NCBI GenBank assembly: GCA_900317945.1
Contig: ONIT01000025.1
Coordinates: 1 to 39,001, forward strand
DNA: 39,001 nucleotides
Direction of reading: 5' to 3'
Source of the DNA: an uncultured Pseudomonadota bacterium
GTDB lineage: Bacteria; Pseudomonadota; Gammaproteobacteria; Enterobacterales; Succinivibrionaceae
Shown here: positions 1 to 10,995 of the stretch, in pieces
Layout of the letters: each line of letters opens with the position of its first letter
Numbering within the stretch: position 1 is the stretch's first letter
The notes under the pieces: model-generated
What the model was told of the DNA's origin: nothing
Seen by the model: only the letters and a program-made list of their open reading frames with translations
Databases searched by the model: none
Program-made: the position numbers and the translations under genes

Positions 1-90
1 ATCCATGGGATACAGGACCTGCCATTTTTCCTCTTTAGGTGTACAAGGATTTTTGGCTGAGGTGGCTATGGGAACCACGGAGATTTTTAA

Positions 91-816
91 ATGCCCCGAT
101 TTAAGGACGTGTCAGATCCCGGCGTCATCAGAATGCTTGATGTCCGCGGAGGCGTTGTGGCTGTTCCGCTCAGCAGCGCTCCGCCGGGGCTTGCCGGAGA
201 GGTCCTCGCGCAGGGAGGGCAGTATCTCTTTACTGTCCCTGCGGGCAGCAGACCGCTGGAAGAGGAGGCTGGGCATGTATTCGTCACGCACTGCGGGGAT
301 GTCCTTTCGTCGGCAGTCCATGCTGACACCGGAGACGTGAAGAAAAAGAAAGTCACCGTGTCCATGCTGCCGGCTTCCCTGCTTCCTCAGTTTGTCACCG
401 CTTACTATGACGGCCTTGAGGGAGGCAGCATTGTCCGGGTTGACATGTCCGGAATAAGGGACAGCCGGAAAATCACCTCCGCGTGGTGCATAACCTCAAT
501 GGCGCCGGTGAGGGGGAATCTCGCAAGGATCGCCGAGGCTGCGGCGCCGTGCCTCCTGCAGGAAGAAGAGCTTCACTGGCTTGCGGACCTCCGCTTCGGT
601 GATGAGAGGATGCGGCCTGATGATCCGGTGTATCTCGCCAACAGGCAGGCGCTTTCCGGGACTGCGGAGTCTCTCCTCCGCTACTGGAGCATTGTCCGCT
701 GGGAGGAGCGCCTGTGTGACAAGCCTATGAGCATAAGCGCGGCGAGGGAGCTTGCCAGACAGCCAATCAAGGCGATGAGGTGTCTCTGCTCGCTGGGCAG
801 CCATTCGATTGCCTAG
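91..816 (+). CDS. Hypothetical protein, 241 aa
   Basis: I do not recognise this protein. An in-frame TGA lies at 58-60 and a TAA at 88-90, so the gene starts inside the window. The ATG at 91 is preceded by GGAG at a good distance. There is no signal peptide or membrane segment. A short lysine run (residues 83-87) falls between two beta-rich stretches, and the C-terminal half is more helical and charged, with several Trp and Arg. The gene converges on bioA and is not part of the biotin operon. Its base composition matches the GC-rich flanking genes, which supports a real gene, but no function can be assigned. Confidence 0.7.
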   Translation: MPRFKDVSDPGVIRMLDVRGGVVAVPLSSAPPGLAGEVLAQGGQYLFTVPAGSRPLEEEAGHVFVTHCGDVLSSAVHADTGDVKKKKVTVSMLPASLLPQFVTAYYDGLEGGSIVRVDMSGIRDSRKITSAWCITSMAPVRGNLARIAEAAAPCLLQEEELHWLADLRFGDERMRPDDPVYLANRQALSGTAESLLRYWSIVRWEERLCDKPMSISAARELARQPIKAMRCLCSLGSHSIA

Positions 817-818
817 GT

Positions 819-840
819 CCGCTGCCTTCTGAGCGGCAGC
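819..840. terminator. Possible terminator between convergent genes
   Basis: GCTGCC at 821-826 pairs with GGCAGC at 835-840, in the 52-bp gap between the hypothetical gene and the bioA stop. Neither strand has a good T-run after the stem, so this is only a candidate bidirectional terminator. Confidence 0.3.
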
Positions 841-868
841 AGGCCTTTAGGCTTTCCGGGGGCTCCTG

Positions 869-2086
869 TCAGCCCCTGTTCCTGCGGTCTGTCCACCAGG
901 CTTTCATGACATCAATGACCTGCTTTATCTGTTCCTCGGTGATGATGCTTGGCAGCATGCCGTACTGAACATCGAGGAACGGCCTCGCGAACACGCCGTT
1001 CTCAGCAGCGAAGTCCTGGAATCCTGCGAGATCCGCGGGGTTCTCCGCCTCAATCGCGAAGGCGCTCCCCATCGCCCTGGTCTCCTTCACGCCCTCGGGA
1101 TGGAAGCCCTCGAGCTCGCGCTTCACAATCCTCTCGATGTTCTTTATCTTCTCGAGCGTATGCTCGCGCTCGAATATCTCGAGCGACTTGAGCCCTGCCG
1201 CCATGGCAATCGGGTTCGCCATGAAGGTGGGGCCGTGCATGAACGCGTCAGATCTGGAATCCGACCAGAAGCCGCTGTAGACCCTGTCGTTCGCGACAGT
1301 CGCCGCGTGCCCAATGTGGCCGCCGGTGAGGGCCTTCCCGAGGCAGATGATATCCGGGCAGACCAGATCAGCCGCGAAGCGGTGGCCGGTCCTTCCGAAT
1401 CCGGTCGCGACCTCATCGTAAATGAGGATGACGCCGTACTCGTCGCAGAGCTCGCGGGCCCTCTTAAGGAACGAGGCATCGTACATCTTCATGCCGCCTG
1501 CTCCCTGCAGAAGCGGCTCCACGATCATCGAGCAGTACTGCTCCCCCTCCTTCCTGAAGGCATCCTCAAGCGCCTCAATGGTTACGGGGATGTGGGTAAC
1601 GTCAGGGTTCTTCGGGAACGCGCCGTGGAAATCCTCGTCATCGCCAACTGACATCGCCATGAAGGTGTCGCCGTGGTAGGCGTTTTTGAGGGAGAGGATC
1701 TTCTTCCTGGGCTTCTTCTGGTTTACGAAATACTGGTAGCCCATCTTGAGCGCGATCTCGACCGAGACGCTCCCGGAGTCGGAGAAGAACACATGATTGA
1801 GCGTTCCCGGGAGGATCTCAGCGAGGCGGTCGGAGAAGTCGCGGGCGCCGTCGTGGACGACGTTCGCCATCATCACATGCGGGAGTTTCATGGCCTGCTC
1901 CGCCATGGCGCGGCAGATTTCCTCGTTGCGGTAGCCGTAGATCATGCACCACCAGGACGAGGTCGAGTCGATGAGATCCCCCCTGTCAGTATGCATGTAC
2001 ACGCCGTCCGCTCCCGTTACGTGGAACGGCGCCTTCATGTGCTTCATCTGGGTATAGGGGTACCAAAGGTGTCCGATGTCTGTCAC
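869..2086 (-). CDS. bioA: Adenosylmethionine-8-amino-7-oxononanoate aminotransferase (DAPA synthase)
   Basis: BioA uses PLP to transfer an amino group from S-adenosylmethionine to 8-amino-7-oxononanoate, giving 7,8-diaminononanoate, the substrate of BioD. The 405-aa product has the class-III aminotransferase landmarks: WYPYTQ near the N-terminus, SSWW at 43-46, DEVATGFGRTG with Asp224, the PLP lysine K251 in LGKALTGG, and HGPTF. I chose the GTG at 2086 because it follows GGGAGGAG, overlaps the bioF stop by 4 bp (GTGA), and puts the conserved WYPYTQ at the usual distance. A longer frame reaching 2239 would run through bioF. It is the last gene of the leftward biotin operon. Confidence 0.95.
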   Translation of the reverse strand: MTDIGHLWYPYTQMKHMKAPFHVTGADGVYMHTDRGDLIDSTSSWWCMIYGYRNEEICRAMAEQAMKLPHVMMANVVHDGARDFSDRLAEILPGTLNHVFFSDSGSVSVEIALKMGYQYFVNQKKPRKKILSLKNAYHGDTFMAMSVGDDEDFHGAFPKNPDVTHIPVTIEALEDAFRKEGEQYCSMIVEPLLQGAGGMKMYDASFLKRARELCDEYGVILIYDEVATGFGRTGHRFAADLVCPDIICLGKALTGGHIGHAATVANDRVYSGFWSDSRSDAFMHGPTFMANPIAMAAGLKSLEIFEREHTLEKIKNIERIVKRELEGFHPEGVKETRAMGSAFAIEAENPADLAGFQDFAAENGVFARPFLDVQYGMLPSIITEEQIKQVIDVMKAWWTDRRNRG

Positions 2087-3252
2087 AGCTCCTCCCTGAA
2101 TGCTCTGATAATGGTCTCTGATGCGCGGGACAGCTCCTCCTCTGTATGGGCGGCTGTCACCGTGAGCCTGATTCTGCTGGTGCCCACCGGGACTGATGGC
2201 GGTCTGATGGCGGAGAGCAGGATATGCTGCTCCCGGCATTTTGCGGCAAGCCTCACCGCCTTCTCCGGATCGCCGAGGATGACCGGGATAATCGCGGTCT
2301 CACCGGGGACCACAGGAAGCCCCGCCTCCGTGAGCGTTTTCCTCATGAAGGCGACGTTCCTACCGAGCCTTTCCATAAGGCTCCCGCCCTCGTTCTCCAA
2401 AACGGTGAGGGCGGCGTCTGCCGCTGCCGCGGTCGACGGGGATATCGCGGTCGAGAAGATGAAGGGGCGCGAGCGGTTCCGGAGGAACTCGATGACGTTC
2501 TTTGACGAGGCGGCGCAGCCTCCCTCCGAGGCGAGGGTCTTGCTCAGTGTCCCGACAGTGAGGTCGGAGAGCCCCGGGTTCCCGAAATACTCTCCCGTGC
2601 CGCGCCCTGTCCTCCCGATGACTCCGGCGGCGTGCGCCTCGTCCGTGATGAGGAAGGCATGGTACTCATCGCGGAGCCTCGCGAGCTCGGGGAGCGGCGC
2701 GATGTCCCCGTCCATGCTGAACACGCCGTCAGTTACGATGAAGCGCTGCCCGTCAGTCGGGTTCTCTTTCATGAGCTTCTCAAGCGCCTCAGCATCAGCG
2801 TGGGGATAGACCACCACCTTCGCCCTGGAGATCCGGCAGCCGTCGATGATGCTCGCGTGGTTCAGCGCGTCGCTGAAGATGACGTCGTCCTTCGAGGCGA
2901 GGGCAAAGAGCACGCCGAGGTTCGTCATGTAGCCGGTGTTGAAGACAAGCGCGTCCTCTGAGCCGCGGAACCTCGCAAAATGCCTCTCGAGGCGCGAGAT
3001 CTCGAACGACGAGCCCGAGGTGAGCCTGGCGCCTCCCGAGCCGGTGCCGTACTGAAGCGCCTTGGCGGCCGCCTCAATGACCTCCCTCCGGTGGGTGAGC
3101 CCCAGGTAGTTGTTGGAGTTGAAGACGATGAAGCGCTCCCCCGAGGGGCTCTCCGCAAGAGTCGGGGTGATCATCCTGAAGTCCGCAACATGGCGGTAGA
3201 CTCCGGCAGCGCTCAGTTTCTGAAGAGCGGCCGGTATGTCCTTAATCAGCAT
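2083..3252 (-). CDS. bioF: 8-amino-7-oxononanoate synthase
   Basis: BioF condenses pimeloyl-CoA with L-alanine and releases CO2, using PLP. The 389-aa product is the normal length for the family. Visible landmarks are SNNYLGL (46-52), the glycine-rich GTGSGGARLTSG (69-80), DEAHAAG with Asp204, and the PLP lysine K238 in GTLSKTLASEGG. The ATG at 3252 has AGGAGGG just upstream and overlaps the end of the second bioW by 11 bp, so translation is probably coupled. It takes the pimeloyl-CoA made by the BioW enzymes immediately upstream. Confidence 0.96.
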   Translation of the reverse strand: MLIKDIPAALQKLSAAGVYRHVADFRMITPTLAESPSGERFIVFNSNNYLGLTHRREVIEAAAKALQYGTGSGGARLTSGSSFEISRLERHFARFRGSEDALVFNTGYMTNLGVLFALASKDDVIFSDALNHASIIDGCRISRAKVVVYPHADAEALEKLMKENPTDGQRFIVTDGVFSMDGDIAPLPELARLRDEYHAFLITDEAHAAGVIGRTGRGTGEYFGNPGLSDLTVGTLSKTLASEGGCAASSKNVIEFLRNRSRPFIFSTAISPSTAAAADAALTVLENEGGSLMERLGRNVAFMRKTLTEAGLPVVPGETAIIPVILGDPEKAVRLAAKCREQHILLSAIRPPSVPVGTSRIRLTVTAAHTEEELSRASETIIRAFREEL

Positions 3253-4099
3253 CGCTTCCCTCCTGAATTTCTATGAGAACAGGCGTGTTCTCCATATAGT
3301 CAGCATACTCCGCGATGTCAGTGCCGTGACGCACGAAGAAGATCCGGCCTCCGAGCTGGTCGCCCAAATCCTTCATCACGGAGATCCTCCTGTAGCCGTT
3401 CCTCCGCGAGGCGACGTAGCCCTTGGTGTGTCCCGGATCATCTGACCAGCAGAGCTCGGCCACGGTTGGGCCATCCGATACCACCTTGGAGGCGAGCACG
3501 AGGGCCTCCCTCGCGTGGAGATCCCCGGAGAGTCCTTTTCTCTCCAGGAGCCTCTGATACGCTCCCTCATCAGCGATATCCATCGAGGTGCAGCGGATGC
3601 CCCTCTCCGGATCCGGTGAGGGAACGCCGGGGCGGGGCAGGGTGTCGAGCCTCTCCCCGGTCCCGGCGTCAAGCACCATGGCGCCCCTCATGCTCTCCCG
3701 GAGAGCCTCAAGGAGGCGGAAGCCCGCAATGACGGCAGTTCTCCCGACTCCTGCCGCAATGAGCTCGTCAGCCGCGATCCTCCGGCCCTCGTCCTTCGAG
3801 GATGACTGGATCGAGCTGTAGCTGAGAATAGGAGCATGGACTGCCTCAGAGAGGCGGATCTCCTCGACCTTGATCTGTATGAAGTCCGCCCTGCCGCGCT
3901 CATGGGTCCTGGACCTCCTGAGCATTTCCCGGACGGTATACTCAAGGGCGCTTTCCGGAACGATCCGCTCCGCGCCCGAGATGTGCCTGCCGCCTCTCCC
4001 GTGCACTGAGCCGAGGCTTGAGCGCATCTTCACGCTGAAGCGTACGTCATCTTCTCTTTTGGCTGCGGCCTCAGGTGAGCACTGAATGTCACGCGGCAT
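3242..4099 (-). CDS. bioW: 6-carboxyhexanoate-CoA ligase, second tandem copy
   Basis: BioW activates free pimelate with ATP and CoA to pimeloyl-CoA. This 285-aa copy has the family signatures SVKMRSS and HISGAERI (22-46), RGKADF-like RGRADFIQIK (69-78), and TVAELCWSDDPG followed by GYV and GYRRI. It is about three-quarters identical by eye to the copy upstream. It has an N-terminal extension of about 16 residues, one extra Leu near residue 194, and HTK at 224-226 where the first copy has YVT and Bacillus subtilis BioW has YIT. I chose the ATG at 4099 (GGAGG upstream, 11-bp overlap with the first copy) over the longer frame from 4183, which would start deep inside the first copy. The frame is intact, so this is not an obvious pseudogene. 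Confidence 0.9.
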   Translation of the reverse strand: MPRDIQCSPEAAAKREDDVRFSVKMRSSLGSVHGRGGRHISGAERIVPESALEYTVREMLRRSRTHERGRADFIQIKVEEIRLSEAVHAPILSYSSIQSSSKDEGRRIAADELIAAGVGRTAVIAGFRLLEALRESMRGAMVLDAGTGERLDTLPRPGVPSPDPERGIRCTSMDIADEGAYQRLLERKGLSGDLHAREALVLASKVVSDGPTVAELCWSDDPGHTKGYVASRRNGYRRISVMKDLGDQLGGRIFFVRHGTDIAEYADYMENTPVLIEIQEGSDAD

Positions 4100-4898
4100 C
4101 GCCTTCCTCCGGCGTGTCGATGAGGACCGGGGTGTTCTCCATGTACCCGGTGTATTTCCCGGTGTCGGTGCCGTGCCTGACAAAGAAAATCCTGCCGCCG
4201 ACCGGATCGCCCAAGTCCTTCATGACGGTTATCCTGCGGTAGCCGTTCTTCCTCGAGCCGACATAGCCCGTGACGTAGCCCGGATCGTCAGACCAGCAGA
4301 GTTCGGCGACCGTTGAGGGCTCCGACTGCACCTTGGAGGCGAGGACCATGGCCTCCCTCGCGTGATCTCCGTAGAGCCCCCTTGCCTTCATGAACCTGCG
4401 GTACGCGTCCTCGTCAGCTATGTCCATAGAGCTGCAGCGGATGCCTCTTCTTGGATCCGGAGCGGGAGTGCCGGGGCGGGGCAGGGTGTCGAGCCTCTCG
4501 CCGGTCTCAGCGTCAAGCACCATGGCGCCCCTCATGCTGTCGGTGAGCGCTCCGAGAAGGCTCATTCCGGCGGTAACTGCCTTATGGCTTACGCCGGCTG
4601 CCTCGAGCTCCTCAGCCGCGATCCTCCGGCCCTCGTCCTTTGAGGAGGACTTTATCTCGCTGAAGCGGAGGAGCGGGGCGTGGACTGCCTTTGAAAGATT
4701 AAGCTCCTCGACCTTGATCTGAATGAAGTCAGCGGTTCCCCTCTCGTGGGTCCTTGCCCTCCGGAGCATCTCGCAGACGGTCTCCTCAAGGGATTTCTCC
4801 GGAACTATCCTCTCTGCCCCCGAGATATGCCTGCCGCCCATGCCGTGAACCGAGCCGAGGCTCGAGCGCATCTTGACGCTGAAGCGTGTCCTTTCCAT
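4089..4898 (-). CDS. bioW: 6-carboxyhexanoate-CoA ligase, first tandem copy
   Basis: This is the more canonical BioW, 269 aa against about 260 in B. subtilis. SVKMRSS (7-13), HISGAERI (24-31), HERGTADFIQIKVEE, SMRGAMVLD and TVAELCWSDDPGYVTGYV match the known pimeloyl-CoA synthetase at positions conserved from Firmicutes. It lies 3 bp after bioD and overlaps the second copy by 11 bp. BioW supplies the pimelate moiety by activating free pimelate, in place of BioC/BioH synthesis on the fatty-acid pathway. That is less usual in gammaproteobacteria. The source of pimelate (diet, cross-feeding or a BioI-type step) is not visible here. Confidence 0.94.
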   Translation of the reverse strand: MERTRFSVKMRSSLGSVHGMGGRHISGAERIVPEKSLEETVCEMLRRARTHERGTADFIQIKVEELNLSKAVHAPLLRFSEIKSSSKDEGRRIAAEELEAAGVSHKAVTAGMSLLGALTDSMRGAMVLDAETGERLDTLPRPGTPAPDPRRGIRCSSMDIADEDAYRRFMKARGLYGDHAREAMVLASKVQSEPSTVAELCWSDDPGYVTGYVGSRKNGYRRITVMKDLGDPVGGRIFFVRHGTDTGKYTGYMENTPVLIDTPEEGDAA

Positions 4899-5794: not shown

Positions 5795-6670
5795 TCAGAC
5801 CTCGCCGTTCCATTGGTGATTCCTGCGGGAGCGCTGTCTGACTGCATTTTGGACTGCTTCAAATGTTTCTCTGGAAACAATCGGAGGATGCTTCCCGGCA
5901 AGAGCATACTGATCGCGGCCGGAGCCTTTGAACAGAATGGTGTCGCCGATGTATTTCTCATTATGCAGCATTGTCTCTATGGCCCGCTTGTACCAGGTAT
6001 CCTTTCCTGCCGGGGATTTGACACCTTGTTCCCGGAGCTGTCTGATGATTGAGACAATGCTCTGCCCAGACAGGTATGCGTCAAAGATCCAGCGCACAAT
6101 CCGGGCTTCTTCTTCATTAATGATTAGATCTCCGTCCTCATCGTGATCGTAGCCGTAGCATTTTCTGTTAAAAAGCCTGCTAGTTCCGAGAGCGGCGCTT
6201 ATGGCCAGGCCCCTGCGGATATTAGCGCTGCGTGAGCCTTTTTCTGCCGGTGAGTCTGTGTTTATTGCCGAAATGATGACATGGTCTGTATCGGTACCGG
6301 AGCCAGCATTGTCATCAACGGCAATAACCCTTGCCCCATATTGCTTTGCATCATTGATAAAGGCAAGGATATCTGAGCAGCTGCTGCCAAGGCAGCCCAG
6401 GTTTTTAAGCAGAATGATGTCCAGCCTGCCCGCTGCACAGTCACCTGACATTCGCTCAAATTCCTCTCTGTGAGCTCTGTTTCTGCCATTGGGCATATCC
6501 AGATAGATATCAGAAAGGCGCCAGCTGTCATGAGCCGCAGCATATCTGGCAAGGGCAGAAAGCTGTTCTGAAAGTTTTTTCAGCTGTGCAACCCCGCCGG
6601 CACTGATGCGGCAGTAGATACCAACCTTGGAGGGGCGGTCTTTATCAGCCGGAGAATCATGTTCATTCAT
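5795..6670 (-). CDS. Serine-recombinase-like protein with degraded active site
   Basis: The 291-aa protein has an N-terminal resolvase domain (VGIYCRIS, residues 16-23, with Arg21 and the nucleophile Ser23 present) followed by the Recombinase domain (about 165-275). The helix that normally reads like LDRLGRD and carries two catalytic arginines (R68 and R71 in gamma-delta resolvase) reads NLGCLGSS here. Cys93 and Ser96 replace those arginines. The protein stops right after the Recombinase domain, without the zinc-ribbon and coiled-coil region of large serine integrases. Its ATG overlaps the YhcG stop (ATGA), so the two are translated together. It is probably unable to recombine DNA by the usual chemistry but may still bind it. 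It could be a decayed integrase or a co-opted DNA-binding subunit. Confidence 0.85.
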   Translation of the reverse strand: MNEHDSPADKDRPSKVGIYCRISAGGVAQLKKLSEQLSALARYAAAHDSWRLSDIYLDMPNGRNRAHREEFERMSGDCAAGRLDIILLKNLGCLGSSCSDILAFINDAKQYGARVIAVDDNAGSGTDTDHVIISAINTDSPAEKGSRSANIRRGLAISAALGTSRLFNRKCYGYDHDEDGDLIINEEEARIVRWIFDAYLSGQSIVSIIRQLREQGVKSPAGKDTWYKRAIETMLHNEKYIGDTILFKGSGRDQYALAGKHPPIVSRETFEAVQNAVRQRSRRNHQWNGEV

Positions 6671-7677
6671 TTGCTTTTTTCGTCTTTCGCATCGCTTATT
6701 GCCTGGTATTCACGATGAAGCTCTTCTGAAAGTTCTTTTTCAGAAGGGAGGTACAGCTTGTATTTTGACGCAAATACCTGAGTCTCATTTTCAGGCAGTG
6801 TGTATTTAACGAGCGAGTCACTTTTGTCCGCGCACAGCACAATGCCGATTGGCGGATTGTCACCTTCGTTCATCAGCTCCCGTTCATAGTAGTGGACGTA
6901 CATCTGCATCTGTCCTAGATCCTGGTGAGTCAGGTCTCCGATTTTCAGATCTATAAGTACGAAGCATTTCAGAATGTAATTATAGAAGACAAGATCAATG
7001 TAGAAATGCCTTCCGTCGAAGACGATATGCTTCTGGCGGGCAACAAAGGAAAAGCCTCTGCCAAGCTCCAGCAGGAACTTCTGCAGGTGGGAAATCAGCG
7101 CCTGTTCCAGATCGCTTTCGAAAAAATCATCGTCAGGATGGAGGCCGATGAATTCAAGAACATAAGGATCGCGGATAATATCCCTTGGATCCTTCGGAGG
7201 CTCCAGTTTCTGGATCTCGCCGGCAACCACTGCCTTGTTTTTGCTTGAAAGCAGCCTTTCATAAAAGAAAGTGCTGATCTGACGTTTCAGTTGCCTGGTG
7301 CTCCACTGGGATTTTACGGTCTCTTCAAGATAGAACTGACGTGCAGCAGGATTTTCCACGCGCATGATCATGCGGTAATGGCTCCATGTCAGTTCGCTGT
7401 GCAGTGTCTCTTTGTTTTGGAAAGTGAGATAGAACTGGCGCATGTCCCTAAGATTTGTAACAGTAAACCCCTTTCCGAACTCAGAAGTCATGCGCGCGGA
7501 CAGCTCCCCGATGAGCTTCTGCCCGTATTCAGCTTTGTCTGTTCCGCCCTGTTCATGAACTATGGCTTTGCCGATGTTCCAGTATGCATTGACCATTTCT
7601 GTGTTTGCAGTCCGGTACACCGAGTTTCTTGCATGCTGAAGGATATTGCTGATTGTCTGGTAAAAAGATTCTTCCAT
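6667..7677 (-). CDS. YhcG/DUF1016 family PD-(D/E)XK nuclease
   Basis: The 336-aa protein has the two parts of this family: an N-terminal helical DUF1016_N region (about 5-150, with the WNIGK motif at 33-37) and a C-terminal PD-(D/E)XK nuclease fold (about 165-310). The catalytic signature is visible as Asp228 in YIDLVFYN and LIDLK with Asp243 and Lys245. No biochemical role is firmly established for the family; it recurs in mobile and defence-rich loci. The start is set by AGGAGA 10 bp upstream. The gene overlaps the recombinase-like gene by 4 bp. A palindrome lies 27 bp upstream of the start codon, in the place of an operator. Confidence 0.9.
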   Translation of the reverse strand: MEESFYQTISNILQHARNSVYRTANTEMVNAYWNIGKAIVHEQGGTDKAEYGQKLIGELSARMTSEFGKGFTVTNLRDMRQFYLTFQNKETLHSELTWSHYRMIMRVENPAARQFYLEETVKSQWSTRQLKRQISTFFYERLLSSKNKAVVAGEIQKLEPPKDPRDIIRDPYVLEFIGLHPDDDFFESDLEQALISHLQKFLLELGRGFSFVARQKHIVFDGRHFYIDLVFYNYILKCFVLIDLKIGDLTHQDLGQMQMYVHYYERELMNEGDNPPIGIVLCADKSDSLVKYTLPENETQVFASKYKLYLPSEKELSEELHREYQAISDAKDEKSK

Positions 7678-7703
7678 AGGTAGCTTCTCTCCTGATTTTA
7701 AGA

Positions 7704-7726
7704 TTCACCGCGCAGTGTGCGGTGAA
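7704..7726. repeat. Palindrome 1 upstream of the yhcG-like gene
   Basis: TTCACCGC (7704-7711) and GCGGTGAA (7719-7726) form perfect 8-bp arms around GCAGTGT. The 27-bp block 7702-7728 recurs at 8194-8220 with only two differences, either side of the shared CAGTG core. It sits between the yhcG-like start and the large gap, so it may be an operator, an attenuator hairpin or a recognition site. Confidence 0.85.
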
Positions 7727-7728
7727 TT

Positions 7729-8121: not shown

Positions 8122-8150
8122 CAATTCGCTACGCATTGAGTAGCGAATTG
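8122..8150. repeat. Palindrome 3
   Basis: CAATTCGCTA (8122-8131) and TAGCGAATTG (8141-8150) are perfect 10-bp arms around a 9-base loop (CGCATTGAG). The design resembles palindromes 1 and 2: arms starting AATTC/ATTC, with a CATTG or CAGTG core. No T-run follows on either strand, so a simple terminator is unlikely. Confidence 0.8.
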
Positions 8151-8195
8151 TAGTCTATGCGGATAATGGCAGAAACATGCACCAAATTGGTTAGA

Positions 8196-8218
8196 TTCAC
8201 CGCACAGTGCGCGGTGAA
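8196..8218. repeat. Palindrome 2, near-copy of palindrome 1
   Basis: TTCACCGC (8196-8203) and GCGGTGAA (8211-8218) flank ACAGTGC. It is a 27-bp near-copy of the block at 7702-7728 (25 of 27 identical as a direct repeat) and almost identical in inverted orientation too. It lies 22 bp past the stop of the YbjN-like gene. Confidence 0.85.
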
Positions 8219-8240
8219 TTTAAATGATTTTAATTCATGT

Positions 8241-9025: not shown

Positions 9026-9100
9026 CCTTAACTTTTCCTAAAAATATACCCTAGCGACTTAAACCACTTAAAATGCCATGTTTTCAAACATGTGCAAATG

Positions 9101-10654
9101 TCAGAGTTTATCTATACAAGAGTCAATATCATCGATGGTCACACCAAGGCATTTCATAATGCGATTCTGCTTCCTTATTGGTTTGAAACGTCGTTTATAT
9201 TTCCCTGTGTTAAGGTCCTCATCAGCAGAAATTTCCTCGAGCAGATTAATGATGGAACGTACAGTGAAACTCTTTCTGTCTTTTTCCCTGAGTTCCATAG
9301 TACGATTGAAAATCAATGAATGGAGTATCGCTGCCAAAAACCAGATAAGCATTTTGGTATGAATGGAATCATCGCTGTACACTCCAATTTTCTCCATGCC
9401 CAAAGTCGACTTGAGAGCTGAAAAGACCTTTTCCACGCAGTCACGTTTGGAATAGGCCTCCATTGCTTCCCTGGTGTCCATTTTTTCAGACGACACCAGG
9501 ATGCGGAATCCGAACTTTTTTGCGCATTCATCGATGTTTTCAACATCACGCTCTGCTGAATTAATTACATATGATTCCTCTTCCTTAGTCTCGCCGGAGG
9601 CCTTGCGTCCTTTTTTATTATCTGGAACTGTTCCGGCTTTTGTTGAACTCAGCTTGAACCAGTCAGCGAAATCCATCATTTCATCGTAGGTTACCTGTTC
9701 TTTTCGCTCTATCTTTCTTCTTAACCTGAGTTCTTTTGCCGCAAGTTTGGTGAAAAACGTTTTGCGATCATCCTTTTCGCGATCCGATGACCAGACAATG
9801 TGGAAATACCTTGTCCTAGTGTCGCCAACAAAAAGCTGATCTGTTACAGTCATGCCATACTGGTCCGATTCAGGAATGTAATGTGCAGAGGAACGGACGG
9901 AGGCCGCGTATTTTTTTAGCAAATCCTTTGTAACGTTCATATTGCTTTTCAGCATCAGAAGAAAGTTAAGACTGGCATCATCCATCCGCTGCACGTTATC
10001 TTCAGACATATATCCGCGATCGCAGATAATTGTAATGGATGAATTTTTGAGGTCTTTCAGGGTACCCAAAAATTTAAGCATTTCAGTCGCCTCTACCATA
10101 TCAATTATGGCTCCGGGGAAGACTCTGAAAGTTACTGGAAGTCCGTCTCTCTGACGTACTACATAATCAACGTTCACCTGCTCCAGTGAATTATCATCTT
10201 TGGCGTGTCCCTTTTGGACAAGAAATACTCCCTCGGACTGAGAATTGATATTCGTTGAGTCGTAGCAAAAATAAAGTTTCCCGTCATCAATGGCCCGCTT
10301 TGCCCAAAGCTCATTAAACAGATTTATTCTTGAAAGGGAAATGCTTCCTTTCTGAAACCTGCTGATATAACTGTCGCTCCTGACAGACTCGGAAAAAATA
10401 GCGTGAGATCTGCCCCAATGCGGGTACTCTTGAAAAACCGCTGACTTTGCGCTCAGCATGAACATCGACAGGTCTAGCATGAGATAGGCTTCCTCCTCCG
10501 AGAAAACTTTCAACAGCTCTTCTGTCAGACCTGAATCCATGGCTAGCTTTCTGATTGCAGCATATATTCCTACGGAAATATTGGTATTCCTGTTTGGCTG
10601 TTCTGGAATCTGGTCTTTTGCAAAAATCAGGAAGTAATTTGAGTTAGGAACCAT
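9101..10654 (-). CDS. IS1634-type DDE transposase, main frame
   Basis: The 517-aa frame has the DDE landmarks of this family: YDSTNIN (first Asp), ICDRGYMSEDN (second Asp), and Y-x2-RD-x-VE-x2-F near residue 430 (the Glu). It catalyses cut-and-paste movement of the surrounding element. Known members are usually one frame of about 550-600 aa. Here the first part is a separate frame (10660-10848) that ends 5 bp before this ATG. 62 plus 517 residues make a normal full length, so the protein is either split, joined by -1 frameshifting at the A-run near 10669, or recently frameshifted. Confidence 0.9.
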   Translation of the reverse strand: MVPNSNYFLIFAKDQIPEQPNRNTNISVGIYAAIRKLAMDSGLTEELLKVFSEEEAYLMLDLSMFMLSAKSAVFQEYPHWGRSHAIFSESVRSDSYISRFQKGSISLSRINLFNELWAKRAIDDGKLYFCYDSTNINSQSEGVFLVQKGHAKDDNSLEQVNVDYVVRQRDGLPVTFRVFPGAIIDMVEATEMLKFLGTLKDLKNSSITIICDRGYMSEDNVQRMDDASLNFLLMLKSNMNVTKDLLKKYAASVRSSAHYIPESDQYGMTVTDQLFVGDTRTRYFHIVWSSDREKDDRKTFFTKLAAKELRLRRKIERKEQVTYDEMMDFADWFKLSSTKAGTVPDNKKGRKASGETKEEESYVINSAERDVENIDECAKKFGFRILVSSEKMDTREAMEAYSKRDCVEKVFSALKSTLGMEKIGVYSDDSIHTKMLIWFLAAILHSLIFNRTMELREKDRKSFTVRSIINLLEEISADEDLNTGKYKRRFKPIRKQNRIMKCLGVTIDDIDSCIDKL

Positions 10655-10659
10655 CCTTC

Positions 10660-10848
10660 TCAGTTTTCACCCACAATTAAGGCTTTCCCGATAATCACCT
10701 TTTTGTGGGTGGCATGCTTCTTTTGGGGATTGCTCTTCATTGGTACCCACTCTGTGGTCGTGTTGTAGTACACGTATCCCTTACTGCGTGAAACAGACAC
10801 ATTAATCGGAATTTCTACTGGGTCAAAACGCATTGAGGTTCTTGGCAT
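10660..10848 (-). CDS. N-terminal part of the IS1634-type transposase
   Basis: The 62-aa frame ends KKVIIGKALIVGEN and lies directly upstream of the transposase frame. In whole relatives a segment like VxIGK precedes the Pro-Asn-x-x-(Y/F) segment that opens the next frame (MVPNSNYF). The start has AAGGAG seven bases upstream, inside the right arm of the promoter palindrome. The reading frame differs from the downstream one by -1. Confidence 0.75.
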   Translation of the reverse strand: MPRTSMRFDPVEIPINVSVSRSKGYVYYNTTTEWVPMKSNPQKKHATHKKVIIGKALIVGEN

Positions 10849-10854
10849 ACTGGT

Positions 10855-10895
10855 GCTCCTTAGACTAGGGTATAGTATACCCTAGTCTAAGGAGC
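10855..10895. repeat. 41-bp perfect palindrome over the transposase RBS
   Basis: Two 20-bp arms (10855-10874 and 10876-10895) are perfectly complementary around a single base at 10875. The arm nearer the gene holds the AGGAG ribosome-binding site. The arms also contain CTAGGGTATA, which recurs in the IS terminal repeats. A transcript entering from outside would fold and hide the ribosome-binding site; one starting at the internal promoter would lack one arm. Confidence 0.9.
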
Positions 10896-10897
10896 AA
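10869..10897 (-). promoter_or_regulatory. Candidate transposase promoter
   Basis: On the minus strand TTGCTC (10892-10897) and TATACC (10869-10874) are 17 bp apart. The -10 lies within the palindrome, so transcription would begin near 10862, just before the ribosome-binding site. Confidence 0.45.
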
Positions 10898-10904
10898 GAA
10901 AAGC

Positions 10905-10944
10905 ATACGAAAAAAGGGCATAAACACGAGTGTCTATGCCCTTT
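10905..10944 (-). terminator. Terminator guarding the IS against read-through
   Basis: On the minus strand AAAGGGCATA pairs with TATGCCCTTT, followed by a run of six T (plus positions 10906-10944). It lies upstream of the transposase promoter and would stop transcripts entering the IS from the right. Confidence 0.75.
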
Positions 10945-10995
10945 CTGCTGGGGTGGGTGAATACTGGCTAGGGTATAATGTAGGGAAAGTTAAGG

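Follow-up and report, generated by a model that had tools for sequence, protein, structure and literature searches.

A covarying palindrome in yhcG nuclease genes and a short serine recombinase without its catalytic-loop arginines behind one of them

Most genes of the YhcG (DUF1016) nucleases contain a short palindrome with a stem of 12 bp and a loop of three nucleotides, which occupies one fixed position within the gene, covaries between homologs, and has further copies beside the gene. The window (the whole stretch of 39,001 nucleotides analysed here) encodes a member of this family whose gene is followed, in overlap, by a short serine recombinase gene that has lost both arginines of the catalytic loop. 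The palindrome is the stronger of the two results. It is present in the yhcG gene of E. coli K-12 and is the first candidate DNA target for this widespread family, one that is directly testable in E. coli. The pair of nuclease and dead integrase makes a smaller point, namely that one recombinase domain appears to have been kept after catalysis was lost.

The yhcG gene of the window and its upstream palindromes

The yhcG gene (6667..7677, minus strand) encodes 336 residues, comprising the helical DUF1016_N domain (Pfam PF17761, residues 9-141, E 7.7e-46) and the YhcG_C domain (PF06250, residues 166-320, E 1.5e-59). The PD-(D/E)XK nuclease domain (6718..7182, minus strand) reads FYIDLVFYN...LIDLKIG, so that D228, D243, and K245 are intact and the catalytic D...DxK motif is kept, as the earlier note had stated. 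Having both domains and the motif, the protein is a member of YhcG/DUF1016 (COG4804, PDC-S02) like the others, from which its gene differs in carrying no intragenic palindrome but three palindromes upstream instead. PADLOC assigns the protein to PDC-S02 (E 7e-147), which it treats as a phage-defence candidate only, and the literature searched contained no experimental report of anti-phage activity of YhcG/DUF1016.

A 25-bp palindrome, ATTCACCGCGCAGTGTGCGGTGAAT, lies in the leader of yhcG, 26-50 nt ahead of its start codon (7703..7727, 23.4 bits), and a second copy is found 492 bp further upstream (8195..8219, 17.2 bits). According to the covariance model of the element (R1, see below) a third palindrome, CAATTCGCTACGCATTGAGTAGCGAATTG (8122..8150, 26.9 bits), belongs to the same family. 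The fixed in-gene place before the LTWSHY codons (7388..7420, minus strand, 15.0 bits) is not palindromic here, with only one of ten inner pairs formed (p 0.99). The 2.89-Mb genome contains the 23-bp core of the palindrome at exactly two places, each upstream of yhcG, and this core was not found in the other 56 searched genomes of the host's family. In Fusobacterium, a yhcG gene with 70% identity is preceded, at an equal distance from its start, by a 25-bp palindrome whose sequence differs. Rfam gave no match in the window.

Palindromes at a fixed position within yhcG genes

The site of the palindrome in 63 non-redundant yhcG genes is located just before the codons of the LSWTHY motif. Compared to random synonymous back-translation, the palindrome reaches p <=0.01 in 28 of these genes, and the combined p is 3e-32; these p-values overstate independence, however, because the homologs share ancestry. 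A count over 57 genes at this fixed position gave 394 paired inner cells out of 570, against 235.6 (sd 9.3) under synonymous resampling with a maximum of 258 in 200 draws. In a set of 34 sequences 82% of the cells pair, a percentage that is inflated by 30 of the 34 having been chosen for a visible palindrome, whereas the 57-gene count was made without such a choice. The covariation score of this set is 0.60 compared to 0.16 for shuffles and 0.05-0.14 for slid controls, and 11 of the 12 pairs change on both sides. Stems that differ in sequence and yet stay complementary are safer evidence than the p-values. Upstream of yhcG, palindromes in general are not in excess (arms of at least 11 in 13% of cases, and in 13% of the controls); the signal is that of this one element at its fixed in-gene place.

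The covariance model R1 matched 58 of 73 YhcG sources at E-values up to 0.05, the 34 sequences being its training set, and had no match in 620,668 bases of recombinase control loci. Within 435 kb of YhcG loci, some of which overlap, there are 30 hairpins with the loop (A/G)CA(C/G)TG(C/T) and at least eight stem pairs; the remaining 974 kb contain four, all of them copies of the window's own sequence. As the two core copies flank the yhcG leader and are found nowhere else in the genome, the palindromes could be taken for sites of the recombinase, either operators or crossover sites. The element family is, however, present in or beside yhcG genes without a recombinase, including that of E. coli K-12, and absent beside related recombinases in the control loci. 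Operators of the recombinase were therefore rejected, the element following yhcG, and recombinase sites of either kind are highly improbable. To judge from this distribution, the palindromes go with yhcG and not with the recombinase.

In the structure model of YhcG the segment encoded by the palindrome (residues 85-96) forms a loop between two helices (mean pLDDT 73), and on this model such a loop would tolerate insertions. A search of the open literature brought up no paper that describes palindromes in connection with yhcG. At another yhcG locus (L179, 1200-1455) four copies of AATTCCCTAAACAGTGTCTAGGGAATT follow downstream of the gene, about 55-60 bp apart, one of them with a GGT centre.

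The yhcG gene of E. coli

The yhcG gene of E. coli K-12 contains three tandem in-frame palindromes (L263, 4130-4240), while strain NMBU_W05E18 has two and strain 08-3918 has one, and the resulting length differences are in frame. All three strains have a further palindrome 15 nt past the yhcG stop codon (L263, 4971-4995 in K-12). A 37-nt query for this post-stop palindrome matched in 4386 of the 5426 E. coli genomes, with six places at most in any one of them, where a palindrome may count on both strands. Given so few places per genome, the element is not dispersed in E. coli. A yhcG match is present in 4417 of the 5426 complete genomes. Partial matches were considered as allele exchange at the palindrome, which was rejected because the genes are interrupted by IS elements or truncated.

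Comparison with other palindromic elements

REP elements likewise are short palindromes whose stems vary and which go together with a nuclease-type gene, that of the RAYT transposase; they exist in many dispersed copies, and the transposase is of the HUH type. The yhcG genes resemble them in this combination. However, YhcG is a PD-(D/E)XK and not an HUH protein, and the copies stay at the yhcG locus with one inside the gene. The element of the window is likewise not of the REP type, given its PD-(D/E)XK protein and a core that is found twice in 2.89 Mb, both times at yhcG. Rickettsia palindromic elements, as far as PMC4316617 describes them (citing Ogata 2000, 2002), are in-frame palindromes of about 100-150 bp in coding genes. 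The yhcG palindromes are similarly in frame within a coding sequence, but differ from the elements so described in always having the same site in the same gene family, in being 25-39 bp long, and in occurring in several phyla.

The nuclease domain of YhcG has been predicted to be closest to the Holliday-junction resolvases (PMC1189080), and a fold search revealed a weak likeness to the archaeal repair endonucleases 2vld and 5gkj. Given the predicted kinship with the resolvases and the ability of the palindrome to form a hairpin or cruciform, it would be a natural guess that YhcG recognises its own palindrome in such a form. There is, in our view, an even chance that the YhcG nucleases co-evolve with a palindromic element of their own. 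Such an element would have a fixed in-gene site and further copies in the leader or behind the stop codon, its units would come and go without breaking the frame (one, two, or three in the three E. coli strains), and the nuclease would recognise it, folded into a hairpin or cruciform, either to regulate itself or to let the element spread.

The short serine recombinase

The recombinase gene (5795..6670, minus strand, 291 residues) has a start codon that overlaps the stop codon of yhcG, and the ATGA overlap described in the earlier note is found at 6667-6670 with both reading frames open. The protein consists of a resolvase domain (PF00239, residues 18-160, E 1.9e-14) and a complete recombinase DNA-binding domain (PF07508, residues 186-280, E 1.3e-23; 5831..6115, minus strand), the latter evolving at a normal rate according to the branches of a fixed tree. 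Codons 92-97 (6380..6397, minus strand) encode GCLGSS. At this place the sequence of intact relatives is SRF(G/A)R and then D or N, and SRF(G/A)R is present in 17 of 17 aligned intact relatives where the window copy has GCLGS at residues 92-96. C93 and S96 thus stand in place of both SRFGR-loop arginines, which correspond to R68/R71 of gamma-delta. R21 and S23 of the R-x-S motif and R68, which is the first of the conserved arginines and corresponds to R45 of gamma-delta, are invariant among the relatives and kept here. The reading of Arg21, Ser23, Cys93, and Ser96 in the earlier note was therefore right, as was that of a gene without frameshift or stop, all 291 codons being open.

The earlier note had also regarded the protein as lacking its C-terminal region. 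This is not a loss but a subfamily trait, the relatives having 281-346 residues, and decay of the C-terminus was rejected because intact members are equally short. The window recombinase falls into this length class, has PF00239 and PF07508, and lacks a zinc ribbon and coiled coil, which are the parts by which the large serine integrases exceed it; its DNA-binding domain is present. Related short proteins were found in Streptococcus and Gardnerella phages, on IMG/VR contigs, and also in the host's family, where two genomes have them. A profile sets them apart from the recombinases of about 520 residues, and all intact members keep both arginines. The window protein also matches the NCBIfam XisF family (E 2.7e-13). 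Its C-domain matches DNA-binding structures of integrases (phage A118 integrase, E 2e-6; 4kis, rmsd 2.9), and in the structure model two stretches, residues 120-131 and 137-144, have a pLDDT of less than 50.

The recombinases of Streptococcus phage Javan105 (QBX13794), of a Gardnerella phage (QQO40307), and of the loci L005, L011, and L012 have the same two domains and length class, no zinc ribbon, and about 33-44% identity to the window copy. Unlike the latter they keep both arginines (SRFGR), and none overlaps a yhcG gene; the two phage copies are followed by a hypothetical gene. At six genomic loci (L005, L006, L008, L009, L011, L012) a rumA/rlmD-type methyltransferase gene (PF05958) is located close upstream of the short recombinase, and such genes are, on the description given for example in PMC4701971, known as a place where streptococcal elements integrate. 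The close relatives L006-L009, which have the arginine motif, are frameshifted or interrupted genes; L006, L008, and L009 lie downstream of a rumA-type gene, and L007 was not seen in this position. The window recombinase has no direct PF05958 neighbour, being placed between bioD and yhcG; the two PF05958 genes of the genome are on contigs C151 and C159, and a search for a rumA relic in the window found none. Short serine recombinase genes a short way downstream of rumA/rlmD-type genes, many of them broken, were noticed in several phyla (L005, L006, L008, L009, L223, L224), which looks like a shared integration hotspot. At L005 (4974-6262) the recombinase frame continues for about 100 codons beyond the usual end up to the contig end, possibly representing a fusion to another protein.

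Divergence of the two recombinase domains

The catalytic domain of the window recombinase is about three times over-diverged (1.6 versus 0.5 changes per site) while the DNA-binding domain is normal. On the fixed tree the branch of the window copy has 1.57 changes per site for the N-domain and 0.56 for the C-domain. The bootstrap values of 1.62 [1.29-2.07] and 0.54 [0.37-0.73] have ranges without overlap, and the N-domain value was higher in every comparison; the other branches are mostly balanced or slower in the N-domain. Mean identities to the other short members are 35% (N) and 47% (C) for the window copy; the others have 56% and 54% with one another. Six of 18 otherwise invariant residues are changed in the N-domain, and three of 26 subfamily-invariant residues in the C-domain. 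A chimeric origin of the N-domain was rejected, its best identity being to the short subfamily (30-39%, against 25-29% to outgroup sequences). Uniform decay fits these data badly because it would raise the divergence of both domains. In a neutral simulation of the N-domain with 0.4-0.5 substitutions per site the frame stayed free of stops in 1-2% of the runs (indels not counted), which suggests that neutral change matching the divergence of this domain would usually leave stops.

The reading of the earlier note is supported as to the lost arginines and the maintained frame, and decay is not uniform. These data speak for a maintained protein without catalytic activity, but selection itself is inferred from one sequence, as no second genome with the dead form was found. 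Simple decay had been expected to show in close relatives with the arginines and a full C-terminus, of which the arginines are present but a longer C-terminus is not.

YhcG-recombinase pairs in other genomes

Among the related recombinases compared, both the arginine loss and the YhcG partner are unique to the window copy. Within 43 YhcG ORFs taken with 1 kb on both sides, some of them redundant, five have a serine recombinase-like ORF at most 1 kb away. These are the window, the Ilyobacter plasmid pILYOP02 (an overlapping 191-aa resolvase with intact SRLAR motif), another genome of the family (a resolvase with MDRLAR, 85 bp from the YhcG ORF), a short recombinase 623 bp upstream, and a large recombinase 946 bp away. 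Searches with fused queries revealed no record holding both genes among 599 and 840 plasmid records, and one among 326 phage records with both genes together. In this human-gut phage scaffold (MT837820.1; L269, 373-2936) YhcG overlaps by ATGA with a different recombinase, a full-length large serine recombinase of 489 residues with intact LDRFSR motif. An Acinetobacter junii match (H44) was rejected as a fusion because its yhcG lies between hsdM-like and hsdS-like genes. Neighbour counts showed that most YhcG loci have no adjoining recombinase.

A conserved pairing is accordingly not borne out, nor is the arginine loss conserved across pairs, since the two other overlapping pairs have different, intact recombinases. 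Fused queries, neighbour counts, and family-wide searches agree in that the pairing is rare and heterogeneous, and it was rejected as a conserved system. The partners differ each time, which points to recurrent co-residence on mobile DNA instead of one conserved system. Serine recombinases acting with a separate nuclease-fold protein are known from XisF and XisH of the fdxN element. The pair of the window is similar in its composition but XisF is long and active, and XisH belongs to a different family.

Possible meaning of the pair

By a small margin, we favour a reading of the pair as a non-cutting DNA-binding protein made together with the YhcG nuclease over that of a relic. The yhcG gene may have been acquired horizontally with palindromes typical of yhcG in its leader, and a short serine integrase would have become translationally coupled behind it, so that both proteins would be made from one transcript. 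The integrase would no longer catalyse strand exchange while its DNA-binding domain would still be under selection, and it might act beside the nuclease as a repressor or competitor at integrase sites. The ATGA overlap, the open frames, the over-divergence of the N-domain only, and the match of the C-domain to integrase DNA-binding structures argue for this. However, the dead form has been found in one genome only and selection is inferred from that single sequence, decay is common in the subfamily as seen in the broken genes of L006-L009, the residues R21, S23, and R68 are still present, and the model has the two stretches of low pLDDT.

Alternatively, the recombinase may be what is left of an integrase of the mobile element with which yhcG arrived; it would be decaying and without present function, its frame having survived by chance or recency. 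This is only slightly less probable. It is consistent with relatives that carry the arginines, with a pairing unique to this genome, with the pseudogenes L006-L009, of which L006, L008, and L009 were found downstream of rumA-type genes, and with the A+T-rich surroundings (G+C 0.39-0.49 versus about 0.62) containing a transposase and an antitoxin-like ORF. Decay should, however, have hit both domains and not only the catalytic one, and it has left neither stop nor frameshift in 291 codons. That nuclease and DNA-binding partner are a working two-gene system for defence or element control is unlikely: YhcG is a phage-defence candidate in PADLOC and overlapping pairs exist in two other backgrounds (pILYOP02 and the human-gut phage scaffold), but those partners belong to unrelated subfamilies with intact catalytic motifs, both genes are together in none of the plasmid records and one of the phage records, and most YhcG loci do without a recombinase.

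Surroundings in the window

Between 5700 and 16500 the G+C content of the window is 0.39-0.49, compared to about 0.62 on both sides. This low-G+C island holds yhcG and a transposase along with two AAA-ATPase_like/PDDEXK_9 proteins; a RelB-like antitoxin ORF is also present, for which no toxin partner is obvious. The DDE transposase ORF (9101-10654) is bounded by inverted ends of 22 bp that are 82% complementary (9034-9055 and 10967-10988), and a perfect 21-bp inverted repeat is found at 10854-10896 within this region (9034-10988). The genes bioD-bioW-bioW-bioF-bioA look like a biotin gene cluster, in which two overlapping bioW (6-carboxyhexanoate-CoA ligase) ORFs are arranged in tandem (3242-4183 and 4089-4898), an apparent tandem duplication.
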